The notes under the pieces: generated by a model
The model's database searches: none
Seen by the model: only the letters and a program-made list of their open reading frames with translations
Told to the model about the DNA's origin: nothing
Position numbers and translations under genes: made by a program
Virus record (IMG/VR): IMGVR_UViG_3300046318_000150
Span: 1-31,250 of that record
DNA from: a virus
Length of the DNA stretch: 31,250 bases
Reading direction: 5' to 3' (one strand)
Part shown: piece after piece, positions 4,087 through 14,353 of the stretch
How positions within the stretch are numbered: position 1 is the first letter of the stretch
Layout of the letters: each line of letters begins with the position of its first letter

Positions 4087-5621
4087 TAACTGCCCATCCA
4101 CGATGTAGATATTCCAGCGGAAGAATACGCGCTTACGCGGCGCTTGTCAACGCGTCCTAGACGCGGATCAGTAGATGCTACAGGAAACGCGAACGTGACC
4201 GCTATGGCGTCCGCAGCGTCCGGCGATGCTAGGCCGCGCGCCTTCATGTCCTTCTTGCTCTCAAGGAACAGCGTACCCTTGCTGTCAGGCTTGGTGCGCG
4301 GGCTTATGAGGTCGGTTTTCAGGAACCTATCGGTCGGAATATGGCCTGTTTTCAGCCAGTCGCGCATGGCGCCCCACATTTCAGCGCGTTTGTTGCCCCA
4401 CATTGTCTGATTTTTGGCTTTATTGCCGAAATTCACGCCGCGTATCTTGTATCGCTGCTCTTTTAGCCGGTCTACGACGCCTGCGCCTAGGCCGCCTTCG
4501 TCGATGCACACCAGCGCAGGCTTAAACTCTTCTATGGCGTCGATGACATGGCCAGCAACCTCCATAGTGTCCGCGCCGCGGTGCCTGCGTAGCTCCAGAA
4601 TGTCCCGCCCTTGGCGCACAGCGATGACGGTGGCGTCAGCCCCGAAGCGTGCAGGGTCTACGCCGATGACAATCGGCGCTGTGGCGTCTCTGGCCGGCGT
4701 GCGTTTCATGGCATCATCCACTAAAGTGCTGCCAATGAACTGATCGTCGCCTTCTGACGGGAAATTACCGTAAACTTCGACGCTGGCTTGGTAGCTGTCA
4801 GGCCCATATTCGTCGATGATGCGCTGATACAGGTTTTTATCCGTACCTTCGACATCGCGGGCGTCGATGACGCGCGTCTGCCAGAACGCGCGCTTGCTGT
4901 GAAACGTCTCGTAGAAGTAGCCGGTGTTCCGCCGCGGGTTGGAAAAGGCCAGATGAAAGCGATGCGGCGTATTTTCCGTAAAGAAACCGTCGCTGACGGA
5001 CCATATCGAGTCTGGAATACCGCTGGCTTCGTCAAATATCAGCATCACACCATCTTCGTTGTGCAAACCAGCATAAGCATCTGGGTTTTCTTCAGACCAT
5101 AAACGCCCTTCAACTGACCAATACCGCGTACCCTTTTTCATTTCTCGCTCAACGATTTCGGTGAGCCACTTAGCGGGCATAATGCGAGTAGCTGCAATTT
5201 CATACCAATGGCTGTTTATCGTCATAGCTAACCACTTAGTGATTTCCGCCCAAGTAACAGATCGTAGCTGGGCTTCTGAGTTAGCTGACACAATTACAGA
5301 GCCGCCAATGCGGGTAGACATCATCCATATGACCAGCCAGCTTACCAATGCTGACTTACCGATACCGCGTCCAGAAGCCACAGCCATACGGAACGTGTCA
5401 AAATCTATCTTACCGTTGTTTGCTTGGATGTGGTCGCGGATAGATTGCAGGATAGCCCGCTGCCATTTACGCGGTCCAGCGTGTTTCTCTAGTGGTGTGC
5501 CTTGCTCACCCCAAGGAAAGGCCAAAAGCACGAAGGCGAGCGGATCGTCCTTGATTGACGGCGCCCATAGCCGCGCCATTAATTCTACTTCGTCGGACGC
5601 ACTATATATTGGCTGCTGCAT
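4086..5621 (-). CDS. terL: Terminase large subunit (ATPase/nuclease)
   Basis: This 511-residue protein is the packaging motor subunit that translocates DNA into the prohead through the portal and cuts the concatemer. Visible motifs are a Walker A-type loop SGRGIGKS at residues 83-90, a Walker B segment MLIFDE at 193-198 with the catalytic Glu, and an RNase H-like nuclease domain starting at GVDPARFG (Asp322), with further acidic residues at Asp374/Glu375 and Asp468 in SPDAADA. Length and order of ATPase then nuclease domain are standard. The start lies 20 nt inside the upstream HNH gene and the stop overlaps the next start. Gene order terS-HNH-terL-portal supports the call. Confidence 0.95.
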   Translation of the reverse strand: MQQPIYSASDEVELMARLWAPSIKDDPLAFVLLAFPWGEQGTPLEKHAGPRKWQRAILQSIRDHIQANNGKIDFDTFRMAVASGRGIGKSALVSWLVIWMMSTRIGGSVIVSANSEAQLRSVTWAEITKWLAMTINSHWYEIAATRIMPAKWLTEIVEREMKKGTRYWSVEGRLWSEENPDAYAGLHNEDGVMLIFDEASGIPDSIWSVSDGFFTENTPHRFHLAFSNPRRNTGYFYETFHSKRAFWQTRVIDARDVEGTDKNLYQRIIDEYGPDSYQASVEVYGNFPSEGDDQFIGSTLVDDAMKRTPARDATAPIVIGVDPARFGADATVIAVRQGRDILELRRHRGADTMEVAGHVIDAIEEFKPALVCIDEGGLGAGVVDRLKEQRYKIRGVNFGNKAKNQTMWGNKRAEMWGAMRDWLKTGHIPTDRFLKTDLISPRTKPDSKGTLFLESKKDMKARGLASPDAADAIAVTFAFPVASTDPRLGRVDKRRVSAYSSAGISTSWMGS

Positions 5622-6096
5622 ATAGCTGGCTTTCTACCTTTTTGCGCGCTTTAAGCGCTTGCGTTTCTGTATCAAAAACACCTAACGCGCGGCGTTTACC
5701 GTTAAAATCTATATATGCGCGCCAGCGTTTGCCGTTAAAACTGCGGCTAACGCCAATATGCTTTGAATATGCGTTTTCAGACTTTACTCTGTTTTGGCAA
5801 TTTGAAAAGCGTGATGCCAACCTAAGATTTGCAATACGGTTATCGCCGCGCACACGGTTTATGTGGTCTAACTCAGATGCAGGCCAATCGCCAGTTTCGT
5901 AAAGCCACGCCAACCTATGCGCTTTGTAAGATACGTTATCTAACTTTATGACAGTGTAGCCGTGATAAGATGGTGTTCCTGCTACGCAACCCGGCGTGCA
6001 GCGTGGGCGTTTTATGCGCCAGCGAAATTCGCCAGTGTCAGCATCATATGTCAGTAGACTTTTTAGTCTCTCTTGCGTTATTAAGTTCGTAGCCAT
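5602..6096 (-). CDS. HNH homing-type endonuclease with C-terminal AP2 domain
   Basis: The 164-residue product has an HNH_3-type core: His60 in KAHRLAW, ELDHIN with His78, then DNRIANLR with Asn86. After it comes an AP2/ERF-like DNA-binding segment (residues ~112-150) with IGV near its start and a W-R-A-Y-I strand. HNH-AP2 proteins are typical free-standing homing endonucleases of phages. I chose the ATG at 6096 because an AAGGGA site lies 7 nt upstream; a TTG at 6102 is possible. The gene overlaps terS by 53 nt and terL by 20 nt, so it sits within the packaging operon. All core residues look intact, so it may be active. It could spread itself or cut competing phage DNA near the terminase locus (inference). 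Confidence 0.88.
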   Translation of the reverse strand: MATNLITQERLKSLLTYDADTGEFRWRIKRPRCTPGCVAGTPSYHGYTVIKLDNVSYKAHRLAWLYETGDWPASELDHINRVRGDNRIANLRLASRFSNCQNRVKSENAYSKHIGVSRSFNGKRWRAYIDFNGKRRALGVFDTETQALKARKKVESQLYAAANI

Positions 6097-6550
6097 TAAC
6101 AAGTCCCTTTTGTTGATCGGTCAGGAGTGTGGGGGGCGTTGGTGCGCTCTCCACTTCCGTATACAGTCCTTGTATAACACGCGACTGCGCTTTCTCCAAG
6201 GCAGCAATTACGCTGATTTGGCCTTCAACAGTAATCTCTACAGACTGTGCAGCTTTCCAGCCGTGCTGATGCTTGAGTATCTCCAGCGCAGCCTTGCTGT
6301 CGCCATCGCGCGCCGCTTCGTACATCGTCTTAGCCGCAGTGTACTCGCCGTCAGCGCGGCCTTTGATTTCAGCCATCTCCACCAGCGGGTCAGCGTCGGC
6401 CAGCACGCGGAACTGCCGCGGGGTTAATCCAGCCGCCATAGCCAGACTGTCACCCTTAAGTCCGCAGCGGGCAGCTTCATAGATTGCTTCCAGCCGCGAC
6501 TCAGTCGCCTGCGTGCGCTCTGGTGTGAATGGCAGTGAGTAGAAAGTCAT
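6044..6550 (-). CDS. terS: Terminase small subunit
   Basis: The 168-residue product has an N-terminal helix-turn-helix-like part (residues ~16-52: A-I-Y-E-A-A-R-C-G then a short linker and A-G-L-T-P-R-Q-F), a repeat-like helical middle with MYEAARDGD, and AALEILKHQHGWK at ~88-99, a sequence style common in small terminases. It would recognise the packaging site and load TerL. It is the first gene of the leftward packaging/structural operon. ATG at 6550 is chosen although no Shine-Dalgarno site precedes it, because a good promoter ends 7 nt upstream, implying a leaderless message. A TTG at 6586 would lie within the promoter -35. The C-terminal ~18 residues are encoded in DNA shared with the HNH gene. 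Confidence 0.82.
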   Translation of the reverse strand: MTFYSLPFTPERTQATESRLEAIYEAARCGLKGDSLAMAAGLTPRQFRVLADADPLVEMAEIKGRADGEYTAAKTMYEAARDGDSKAALEILKHQHGWKAAQSVEITVEGQISVIAALEKAQSRVIQGLYTEVESAPTPPTLLTDQQKGLVNGYELNNARETKKSTDI

Positions 6551-6557
6551 TGGGCGT

Positions 6558-6586
6558 ACTATAGTGTGTTGCAAACCAGATTGCAA
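6558..6586 (-). promoter_or_regulatory. Sigma70-type promoter for terS (leaderless)
   Basis: On the minus strand TTGCAA (6586-6581) is followed by a 17-nt spacer and TATAGT (6563-6558), a near-consensus -35/-10 pair. Only 7 nt separate the -10 from the terS ATG, so transcription would start at or next to the start codon. No ribosome binding site is present there, consistent with a leaderless mRNA. An A/T-rich run lies just upstream of the -35. Confidence 0.6.
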
Positions 6587-6707
6587 AAAAAATAAAAATT
6601 GTTTGCGAGCCTACCCGTGACAGACACACACGCCGTCGGCCCCACCCACCCCCTGCATAAAACTTCCGGCAAACTTATGCGCGCGTTTTAATGCTCGCGT
6701 TTCGCTG

Positions 6708-6735
6708 TGCGATTGACGCGCTGCGATTGACGCGC
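6708..6735. repeat. Perfect tandem 14-bp direct repeat (2 copies)
   Basis: TGCGATTGACGCGC occurs twice without a gap (6708-6721 and 6722-6735), followed by a partial third start. It lies in the non-coding control region about 100 bp from the first GACGTC site. It could be an iteron pair or a regulator site. Confidence 0.85.
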
Positions 6736-6979
6736 GCGGATTGGGATTGGCCTTTCCATTATTGCGAGTCAGTCGCATTAAGAAAAACATATCGGCTAGC
6801 TAGCTATGCTGCGGTGCAACATAATGCATGGGACGTCATGGACGTCATGACAATCCAAGTCACCCGGCAACACTTGACGTTAACGTAAAGCAAGGCTGAT
6901 TGCGTGGCCGATCACGTGGCCAATTATGCGTGCCCTCTAACTGTGTTAGTCAACTAGGGAACGTCATATTGTCATCAAG

Positions 6980-7009
6980 TTGGCAGTTGCCGTGAAATAT
7001 ACGTATACT
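6980..7009 (+). promoter_or_regulatory. Sigma70-type rightward promoter candidate
   Basis: TTGGCA (6980-6985), an 18-nt spacer and TATACT (7004-7009) match both consensus hexamers at 5 of 6 positions. It faces the early genes and would give a leader of about 360 nt running through most of the GACGTC array, so binding there could affect its elongation or initiation. A closer promoter for the first early gene is not clear. Confidence 0.45.
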
Positions 7010-7175
7010 AACCATATAGGTTACTTTTTTTACATCTTCACCTTCTTATCTATTTTATGACTATATGACTGTCTTTTGCATAAAACCCGCGCAATTCAGC
7101 CATTATTCGGGACGTCATTTGCGGTGAAATTGATGACGTCCTTATCGACGTTTTTAACGTCCCATTTTCATAAAG

Positions 7176-7184
7176 TTATCAACA
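7176..7184 (+). other. DnaA-box-like sequence
   Basis: TTATCAACA differs from the classic DnaA box TTATCCACA at one position. It lies between GACGTC sites in A/T-rich DNA. A single one-mismatch copy is weak evidence on its own. Confidence 0.3.
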
Positions 7185-7374
7185 GATTTATTTTCATCAT
7201 AATCGGACGTCATTTTCGGACGTCAAAATGACGTCCCGATGACGTCCCTAATTTCTGCCCTCAAACTTTCTTTATTCGCAACACATTTTAGTGCATTATT
7301 GTGCATTCGATTGCGTTTGTGCCTACCCTCAAATTATGAGAGTAAGAGTGTAGTTAAACAAAGGAGCAAACGAC

Positions 7375-7551
7375 ATGACTAAGAAAGAATGCGAATGCGG
7401 CGGTGCCTGGAACAAGCGTCACGACGATGCGGGCAACCCTATCTGGCAATGCGGCTTGTATGACGCGCACACCAAGCCTCGCCAAACCCGTATATCAGCA
7501 AAGCGCCGCCGCATAGACGCGCTGTTTGCAGAATTGAGCGCCGCCGCATGA
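7375..7551 (+). CDS. Small cysteine-containing early protein (58 aa)
   Basis: First gene of the rightward cluster. ATG at 7375 follows an AAGGAG site by 8 nt. Cysteines at residues 6 and 8 (CEC) and at 27 (WQCGLY) could form an incomplete zinc-binding knuckle; no fourth ligand is obvious, though His16 is near. The C-terminal half is very basic (SAKRRR) and then helical. The product is small and could bind nucleic acid or a host protein. I do not recognise a family. The stop overlaps the next start. Confidence 0.65.
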   Translation: MTKKECECGGAWNKRHDDAGNPIWQCGLYDAHTKPRQTRISAKRRRIDALFAELSAAA

Positions 7552-12004: not shown

Positions 12005-14353
12005 TCAATTCTTGCCTAAGTTCGACATCGTGCTTGGCTTGGGCAATTCCTCTGCCATGCGGCGCAAGTCTGCCTTGTTGTATTTCTTAACCAAATCTGG
12101 CGCGACAAAGATATGCTTCTTGTTCACATAATCTTTCGAGTTGAGCCGGCCCATATCAACCCAGCCAGCTTCCTTCAGCGCGTGTAGCAGCGCCGCCTGT
12201 GGTATCTTCACGCCAGCAGGGACATTGATTGCCAGCGCGTCGCATATGCGATGGAAAGGCCCGCCGATGACACCGCTAGCAAACACGCCCGACTTCACCC
12301 GCATCATGTCTACCAGATAGCTTTCCGCGACGCTCATGCCATGCTCGACCATGTTCAGCTTCCATTCGGTCACTGGCGGCGCAGCGGCAGGGTTGAACCG
12401 CGACACGTCACGCTGCCACAGCCAAGCGGCGCACTTCTCATAGCCGCCCGCCTTATACCAGTTCCACAGCTTATCAGCGGCGGCTGGCGTCATACGCGGC
12501 GCGTGCGTCCACACGCAGAACCAACGCCTGTCCTGCGTCGGCAGCGTGATAGGCAGCGGATCGTTGGTATATGCAATCACCATCAGGCGGTTGACCAACT
12601 CATAGGGGTGCATACCCTTGCGGTTGACTGTCAGCGTCTCAGGCGGCGCAGCGATGAGCGGCTTCAGCTTGTTCGCCATCGCCCGACGTTCGCGTGCCTC
12701 TGGCTCCTTTAGCTCGTTCAGGATGACGACTTCAGCCTCCAGCGAGTAACCCCATTGGCTGTCCAAGCCGCCCGCCTCAATGACTGACCTGTTGCGCCAG
12801 TGCTGACCGCCCAGCGCCCACAGGAACGGCTGGAACATACTATCCTTACCAACGCCTTCATCGCCGCCGATCAGGATGGCATGGTTAATCTTGACGTTGG
12901 GATGCTGTATCTTGAACGCCATAGCGTTAAGGATGTGGTCTAGCTCTTCATCATCCGCGACCAGATTGCGGCAATGCTGTAGCCACGGCTCAACGTCATG
13001 GTCTGCAATCTTGTCGCTACCCGACACGTCAGGGCGTGCGTCTGTCCAGCGGTTGCCGTAGACCAACCCGTCGCGCGTCACCAGCACGTCATCGCCAGCG
13101 GCGAACGTCACGGCGGACAGCGCAGGCGCGCCGCGGTCTTGCCGGCGCTCATCAAAATAGATGGACGACTGTATGCGCTGCGTCTTCTTGTGGATGGAGC
13201 GACAGTCAACGTGACGGAACAGGGCGTTGAAGACGTTGCGCGCTATCTCTTGGCGCGTCACCATGTCAAAATAGCAGTCATCGGACTGTATATAGGCGAA
13301 ACGCTCGAACCATTCGTTTTGTTCCAGCCGTCCGGCTTCTTTTTTCTCGACCTCACGCACGCGCGCTGCGGCTTCGTCAGGGAACGCTTCGGTTGGCGCT
13401 ATCTTGTCCATCATTGACGCCATGCGCTCCGCGATTAGTTCGTCACGCAAGCCGGGCGTTACCTTCGGGCCGCCTTCATTGGCTACCCAATCAAGAAAGG
13501 TGCGGCTGTCTAGGTCTTGGCAATGCCCATGATAGCAGCAGAACGAACGATCCAGCGGCTTGTAGCGCGCCTCGATCATGCCGTCGCTGTGTTGCTCATG
13601 GTTAGGGCAGACAATGCCGCACCAGCCGTCAGCGTTAGGTGCGCTCAGGACTAGATTGTTTTCGCTTAACCATGTCAGGACGTTATCCATCCCGCTGTCG
13701 CGCAGATGCACGGCTTTATACTCCGCTGTGTCGCCTTCCTCTGGCGTAACGCCCAGCGCCGCGCAGATTTCGGGCAGCGTATACTCACGCTCAGGGTGGA
13801 ACTCGACCAGCCGCGCAGGGAAGTTGTTGCGTCCGCGCTTCAGGTTGACGCTGCCGGGGATACGGCAGTTGCGGACGGCGTTAGTCGCGCCCGGATCGGT
13901 GTAGCCCGCATCGGCAATTGCCTTGATGGCGGCGCAGAAGTCGCCCTTGCGCGGCTGTTCGCTGAATGCGTAACCCCACTGGAACGAACCTTCGCTGGTT
14001 TCCAGCACCCATGTCGGCGCAAGCGGCGGCTCTTTCGACTTCGTGCCAACGTCGTCCAGCATCATAAACAGCACATACTCGACGTTGCTGGACTTGGCGG
14101 CTGGCTTGCCGTCTACAAAGCGGTCAACGATGAACGAGCCTGTGTTGACATACCATGCCTCGCCTTCTTTCATGCGGGTCTTTTCTGGCAGGAACGCAGG
14201 GAACGTCGCCTTCGGGACGCCGTCTGCGTGATAAATCAAGTTGCCGTCGCTGTCGTGCTGCGGCTTCTGCCGCACAACAAGGGCTGTCTCGCCGACGTTG
14301 TCCGTCGCCAAGCCAGTTATATACTCTATAAACTTCGTGCGATCCTCACTCAT
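12005..14353 (-). CDS. Primase-helicase (RepB-like primase plus DUF5906-type helicase)
   Basis: I chose ATG 14353 (GGAG upstream, 11 nt after the polymerase stop), giving 782 residues. An N-terminal region (residues ~90-200) has MLDDVG (Asp100/101) and NAVRNCRIPGSVNLK, matching the style of RepB/archaeo-eukaryotic-type primase domains. A Cys/His-rich segment follows (C245, C249, H252, H255, C272/C273, H275, H277, C278). The SF3-like helicase domain has Walker A GGDEGVGKDS (496-505, Lys503), a VVILNE segment ending in Glu547 and TQDRRWF (607-612), typical of DUF5906. It would prime and unwind at the fork with the adjacent polymerase. Whether it is a true primase is inferred. Confidence 0.82.
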   Translation of the reverse strand: MSEDRTKFIEYITGLATDNVGETALVVRQKPQHDSDGNLIYHADGVPKATFPAFLPEKTRMKEGEAWYVNTGSFIVDRFVDGKPAAKSSNVEYVLFMMLDDVGTKSKEPPLAPTWVLETSEGSFQWGYAFSEQPRKGDFCAAIKAIADAGYTDPGATNAVRNCRIPGSVNLKRGRNNFPARLVEFHPEREYTLPEICAALGVTPEEGDTAEYKAVHLRDSGMDNVLTWLSENNLVLSAPNADGWCGIVCPNHEQHSDGMIEARYKPLDRSFCCYHGHCQDLDSRTFLDWVANEGGPKVTPGLRDELIAERMASMMDKIAPTEAFPDEAAARVREVEKKEAGRLEQNEWFERFAYIQSDDCYFDMVTRQEIARNVFNALFRHVDCRSIHKKTQRIQSSIYFDERRQDRGAPALSAVTFAAGDDVLVTRDGLVYGNRWTDARPDVSGSDKIADHDVEPWLQHCRNLVADDEELDHILNAMAFKIQHPNVKINHAILIGGDEGVGKDSMFQPFLWALGGQHWRNRSVIEAGGLDSQWGYSLEAEVVILNELKEPEARERRAMANKLKPLIAAPPETLTVNRKGMHPYELVNRLMVIAYTNDPLPITLPTQDRRWFCVWTHAPRMTPAAADKLWNWYKAGGYEKCAAWLWQRDVSRFNPAAAPPVTEWKLNMVEHGMSVAESYLVDMMRVKSGVFASGVIGGPFHRICDALAINVPAGVKIPQAALLHALKEAGWVDMGRLNSKDYVNKKHIFVAPDLVKKYNKADLRRMAEELPKPSTMSNLGKN

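Follow-up and report, generated by a model that had tools for sequence, protein, structure and literature searches.

The alpha protein of phage P4 is a fused primase-helicase, and its C-terminal origin-binding winged helix (PDB 1KA8) reads iterons. In SaPIs, Rep and Cch2 bind the origin iterons via a C-terminal domain (PMC7581432), and two sets of iterons flank an AT-rich region in PICI origins (PMC6092414). The DNA-binding domain of the V. cholerae PLE initiator covaries with the origin iterons and has been swapped with them several times, and cognate pairing was shown experimentally (PMC8263062); no helicase or primase activity is predicted for PLE RepA_N (PMC7145576). The NrS-1 primase-polymerase-helicase (PDB 6k9e/6k9c) ends in a C-terminal Tail, which the available part of its description (PMC7102993) presents as a novel fold and to which it assigns no origin.

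The window analysed here (31,250 nucleotides, the whole IMG/VR record of a podovirus) holds a cluster of GACGTC sites that are very probably the iterons of a phage replication origin. Its best reading is an iteron origin of PICI/P4-alpha type whose specificity has been switched often. Wing and array switch together in related phages, and this comparison makes it highly probable that the phage's own PrimPol-SF3 helicase binds the origin with its C-terminal domain and that wing residues 747 and 749 of the domain set the array word. The initiator–origin logic is known from other systems; new are its setting and the much finer detail in which switching is recorded.

With the pri-rep-ori modules of PICIs and SaPIs the locus shares a primase/helicase-type initiator and a C-terminal domain that would here, too, read the iterons. 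However, the initiator belongs to a phage and not to a satellite, the window having a P22-like portal (E = 1e-169) and a terminase. The putative origin is not directly 3′ of its initiator, as the array (6830-7248) lies ~5 kb from the end of the initiator gene at 12005. Moreover, the units are ~10 bp long and often 9 bp apart, DnaA boxes adjoin them, and switching in this phage group can be traced to single wing residues in >100 relatives. P4 alpha with its ori/crr is similar in the fusion of primase and helicase and in the C-terminal origin-binding domain, which is putative here; it differs in that the window has one array region in 31 kb and an array word that is highly variable among relatives. 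No sequence match of the primase-helicase to P4 alpha was found, and the P4 origin-binding domain is not among the fold matches listed for the predicted winged helix, a list in which matches are weak overall. The NrS-1 protein likewise combines PrimPol, SF3-like helicase and C-terminal Tail. Its helicase segment is the only convincing PDB relative by sequence (E = 0.0012), and its Tail (618-718) aligns weakly to the C-terminal domain (Z 4.0). PLE resembles the present phages in the covariation of initiator domain and iterons, known here from sequence comparison, but RepA_N is an unrelated initiator and PLE has two variants where these phages have many. The selective pressure proposed for PLE is an origin-directed nuclease of a phage, a counterpart of which we would propose for the present phages only as speculation.

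The array in the window

The podovirus encodes a P22-like portal, a terminase, a family A DNA polymerase, a PrimPol/SF3-type helicase, a PD-(D/E)XK exonuclease and an SNF2-like helicase. Among annotated genomes, the metagenomic MW202483 (Manatee Spring) comes closest, its DNA polymerase being 61% identical. A DNA-level search of a phage database gave no match, and a genome collection search gave one partial match, to a lake metagenome bin, which indicated no host.

The array occupies the non-coding region between TerS and the first early ORF, where one word recurs in many short repeats:

6044..6550, minus strand: small terminase (TerS), bounding the control region on the left (next to TerL and conserved in relatives; no family match)
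6830..6848, minus strand: TerS-side iteron pair ATGACGTCCC (6830-6839) and ATGACGTCCA (6839-6848), in head-to-tail order at 9-bp spacing
6958..6967, minus strand: degenerate iteron ATGACGTTCC; some relatives have an exact copy nearby
7109..7118, minus strand: iteron ATGACGTCCC
7133..7142, plus strand: iteron ATGACGTCCT
7154..7163, plus strand: degenerate iteron TTAACGTCCC
7204..7226, minus strand: iterons ATGACGTCCG (7204-7213) and TTGACGTCCG (7217-7226)
7228..7248, plus strand: iterons ATGACGTCCC (7228-7237) and ATGACGTCCC (7239-7248)
7375..7551, plus strand: first early ORF, bounding the control region on the right

An exact count over the 31,250-base record places GACGTC at 6832, 6841, 7111, 7135, 7206, 7219, 7230 and 7241, and nowhere outside 6832-7246. 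The clustering of eight cores described in a preliminary description of the sequence thus holds for every copy in the contig, and it is not a chance event (8/8 within 416 bp, or 1.3% of the contig). The enrichment suggested there does not extend to the total, which is ordinary (8 versus 6.7 expected from dinucleotide shuffles). Other details of that description were borne out: seven of the eight sites are GGACGTCAT or its reverse, the exception at 7219 being GGACGTCAA; the last four are spaced by 13, 11 and 11 bp and include a perfect inverted repeat at 7218-7236; and two of the degenerate copies it mentioned were found, at 6958 and 7154. The palindromic hexamer, in contrast, has to be given up as the unit. 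The unit is a directional site of ~10 bp, ATGACGTCCC, and this oriented 10-mer has eight copies with 0-1 mismatch in the array region versus one in the remaining contig.

Arrays of other words in relatives

Among the relatives, which were collected by TerL and TerS searches, a few have 6-11 GACGTC upstream of TerS and many have none. Many of the latter carry another repeated word at the same place, and the array words include ATAGCCTA, ATGACCCA(G/A/C), ATGACCTA, ATGACAAC, ATTGCCTA, ATTGTCCACA and others. All these words share the frame A-T-n-n-C/T and the sister arrays are not palindromic; hence, the palindromic look of GACGTC is incidental. An EM motif finder was too permissive, and framed words were counted instead with a finder that is blind to proteins and uses the frame TnnC|nnn. 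One class, referred to as K after its residue 747, was counted one base off this frame (TGTC|CAC); the common frame gives ATTGTCCAC, that is, CCA then C.

It had been proposed to count GACGTC over the genome and its relatives, and to take the lack of an array in relatives as refutation. The contig has none elsewhere. Most relatives do lack GACGTC, but an array built of another word stands at the syntenic place in them, so that this test on relatives would mislead. Outside the array, all these phages have few GACGTC sites (0.06-0.10 per kb), irrespective of the word in their array, and the absence of GACGTC from the remaining contig is therefore not class-specific. Avoidance of a phage's own word outside the origin was considered and rejected; own words are no rarer than others in these phages. 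In two regions, L312 and L313, a 16-copy repeat of another word (TGCCTGC-like) stands upstream of TerS beside the expected TGTCCAC iterons.

Co-switching of the array word with two wing residues

The candidate reader of the array is encoded ~5 kb away:

12005..14353, minus strand: PrimPol/SF3-type helicase, 782 aa, ATG at 14353 after AAAGGAG
12008..12388, minus strand: its C-terminal domain, a predicted winged helix and putative iteron-binding domain (AlphaFold2 pLDDT mostly 78-87 over the core)
12122..12145, minus strand: hypervariable wing-tip loop LNSKDYVN, with the putative specificity residues N (747) at 12140-12142 and K (749) at 12134-12136

Residue numbers count from 14380; subtraction of 9 gives the CDS numbering. 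The protein matches profiles of PHROG DNA primase (6e-21), Pfam DUF5906 (2.5e-9, above the cut-off) and RepB_primase (7e-5), and a VapE-like domain match fell below its cut-off. Its C-terminal end, GW.D.GR[LNSKDYVN]KKH, varies with the array word. AlphaFold2 predicts the order helix, strand, helix, helix and two-stranded wing, at moderate fold confidence (mean pLDDT 72), and places the variable loop between the strands of the wing. Solved structures that match the domain are mostly winged helices, and the matches are weak (best Z 6.3). Foldseek gave no match below E 0.1 with the domain model (E at least 0.13), and a Pfam search of the domain gave nothing worth keeping.

Scores against the array word in 63 labelled regions were computed for all columns of eleven protein families, a twelfth family having too few sequences. 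Residue 747 of the primase was the top column for the array triplet (bias-corrected NMI 0.78, raw 0.91), followed by residue 749 of the same loop (corrected NMI 0.45); all other columns of primase, TerS, TerL and eight small early families reached ≤0.30. A packaging (pac) site read by TerS would suit the position of the array, since TerS is adjacent and its gene starts ~280 bp off, but TerS has no column that follows the word (best corrected NMI 0.17; TerL 0.18), and we consider this reading very improbable. Binding by one of the small early proteins, or by a protein of partition type, is just as improbable. Many small early genes of unknown function adjoin the array and the preliminary description had looked to them for the binding protein; however, no column of the eight scored families exceeds the above limit, and none of 28 early families tracks the word class by presence or absence (best p 5e-4 in 84 tests).

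Residue and word correspond as G–CTA, A/H–CCA, N–GTC/AAC and K–TCCAC. The correspondence holds in 114/114 distinct regions (A/H–CCA 45, G–CTA 30, K–TCCAC 24 and N–GTC/AAC 15), these being the regions among 128 that have a strong word in the four classes, and classes and reading frame were set after part of the data had been seen. The 14 unscored regions comprise eight without a strong word, three in which another repeat ranked above the predicted word (L016, L164 and L312) and three with other words (L005, L074 and L182). When mapped on a primase tree that leaves out the C-terminal domain (114 regions), word class and residue class each change 23 times, in step, and independent pairs on well supported branches agree in 11/11, 9/9, 8/8 and 3/3 cases.

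The base that follows the triplet goes with residue 749, as V/T–G, G/S–A and, once the K class is re-framed, K/R–C. V goes with G in 7/7 regions of the CCA class and 2/5 of the CTA class, G with A in 30/30, T with G in 13/16 and K with C in 16/20; S goes with A or T, and R with C.

New contigs were predicted with two rules. A first, stricter rule was right in 15/22, and its seven misses were five N-type loops, an IACVDH loop and one IGSTDY loop with TTGCCTA. The I/V before NSK is not predictive in the N-type misses, four of which had GACGTC or GACAAC and one no strong word. A coarser rule, which looks at the second residue of the loop, was fixed in writing before two further scans and was right in 35/36 new regions, which come mainly from two loop types and are not 36 independent events. 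In its single miss an unrelated repeat ranked first and the predicted word second.

The sister phages L180 and L186 separate this correspondence from linkage. L180 has loop INSKDYMN and word GACGTC, L186 has loop IGSTELPT and word TAGCCTA, and their primases are ~98% identical outside the C-terminal domain. At the DNA level they share 94% identity along 4.4 kb, a stretch running through the primase gene to ~100 bp past it, with a sharp dip at the loop (41/60 bases alike in that block) and similar protein on both sides. Loop and array, ~5 kb apart, differ although the two phages share DNA in between; therefore, mere linkage does not account for the correspondence. Very probably, the array is read by the phage's own primase-helicase through its C-terminal domain.

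Origin-like features of the array region

Two further features lie within the control region:

7001..7090, no strand: AT-rich segment that separates the two iteron sets, candidate site of melting (AT 0.67-0.73 in 60-bp windows versus 0.35-0.58 for 6611-7000)
7176..7184, plus strand: DnaA-box-like TTATCAACA, which differs from TTATCCACA by one mismatch; relatives have exact boxes at this place

In the relatives, adjacent sites most commonly lie 9 bp apart in head-to-tail order. On the TerS side, almost all sites have one orientation; the early side is mixed, and the majority of its sites 500-600 bp from TerS are opposite to the TerS-side direction. DnaA boxes (TTATNCACA) are ~20x denser in array regions than in the remaining loci, also when the K class is left out, in which the iteron word itself is similar to a DnaA box. 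GC skew gave no clear inflection or origin signal, and an Rfam search gave no match.

The enrichment of DnaA boxes beside the array, and the likeness of the ATTGTCCACA class to such a box, could suggest that the array is bound by a factor of the host, either DnaA or a regulator, as the preliminary description had also allowed. Nevertheless, the close relatives L180 and L186, which are nearly identical, carry unrelated words, and the word follows a residue of the phage; a host reader is thus hardly to be expected. Somewhat less remote, but still improbable, is that the same primase-helicase domain binds the array chiefly as a repressor or timer of the divergent early and late promoters, and not for the start of replication. 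The array lies between divergent gene blocks and reaches the start of the early genes, and promoter-like matches overlap it. Against such autoregulation, the reader is a primase-helicase and not a dedicated regulator, and two iteron sets around an AT-rich stretch with DnaA boxes resemble an origin; moreover, both roles can coexist, as in iteron plasmids. Among the functions first proposed for the array, that of an initiator array is strongly supported, and nothing specific speaks for a repressor stack or a partition centre.

As a replication origin, the array may work as follows. The C-terminal winged helix of the PrimPol-SF3 helicase would bind each ~10-bp iteron via its wing, with the wing-tip residues 747 and 749 determining the word that is read. 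Helicase assemblies would form on the two mostly opposed iteron sets that flank the AT-rich stretch and melt it, perhaps with help of DnaA at the nearby box, and replication would be primed after melting. During evolution, wing and array have switched jointly and repeatedly. What the comparison itself demonstrates is the array, the other words that stand at its place in relatives, the tight joint change of word and residues, and the lack of a comparable signal in the other proteins scored; physical binding, helicase loading, melting and origin firing are steps that we infer from it.

Switching of origin specificity

Initiator–origin specificity seldom changes often enough to be decoded by comparison. 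Here, ~20 co-switches among close relatives single out two residues and three to four bases, and the resulting code is directly testable with natural variants. It would also give the C-terminal domain of such PrimPol-helicases a function, origin recognition. On balance, we favour the view that a widespread freshwater podovirus lineage re-keys its origin, with a compact combinatorial wing-tip code (747 for bases 6-8, 749 for base 9) switched ~20 times together with the iterons, perhaps so that co-infecting relatives or satellites cannot cross-use the origin, or so that it escapes attack. This raises the question of what drives phages to alter their origin word, and to name origin use by relatives or satellites, or origin attack, as the driver is speculation on the model of PLE.

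Other elements around the array

Close to TerS, the elements AAAAATTGTTTGCG (in ~43/47 close relatives) and GTGACAGTCACGCGG lie at 6585-6635 and at the same place in relatives, independent of array class, and are possibly a late promoter or pac element. Another conserved element, ACCATATAGGTTA (~27/47 relatives), is found at 6998-7022, at the edge of the AT-rich segment, and is directly preceded by a promoter-like TTGGCA-18-TATACT. Between TerL and TerS, at 5602-6102 on the minus strand, an HNH_3 endonuclease with an AP2-like domain is encoded (HNH E 8e-15), which looks like a homing endonuclease; L005, the locus of MW202483, has an annotated homing endonuclease just past TerS. Upstream of its TerS, L005 carries a divergent array, ATGTAAACA, with 11 copies of TGTAAAC, and its wing loop, CFAPELST, is divergent too; from this example the pairing of word and loop seems to extend past the four classes.
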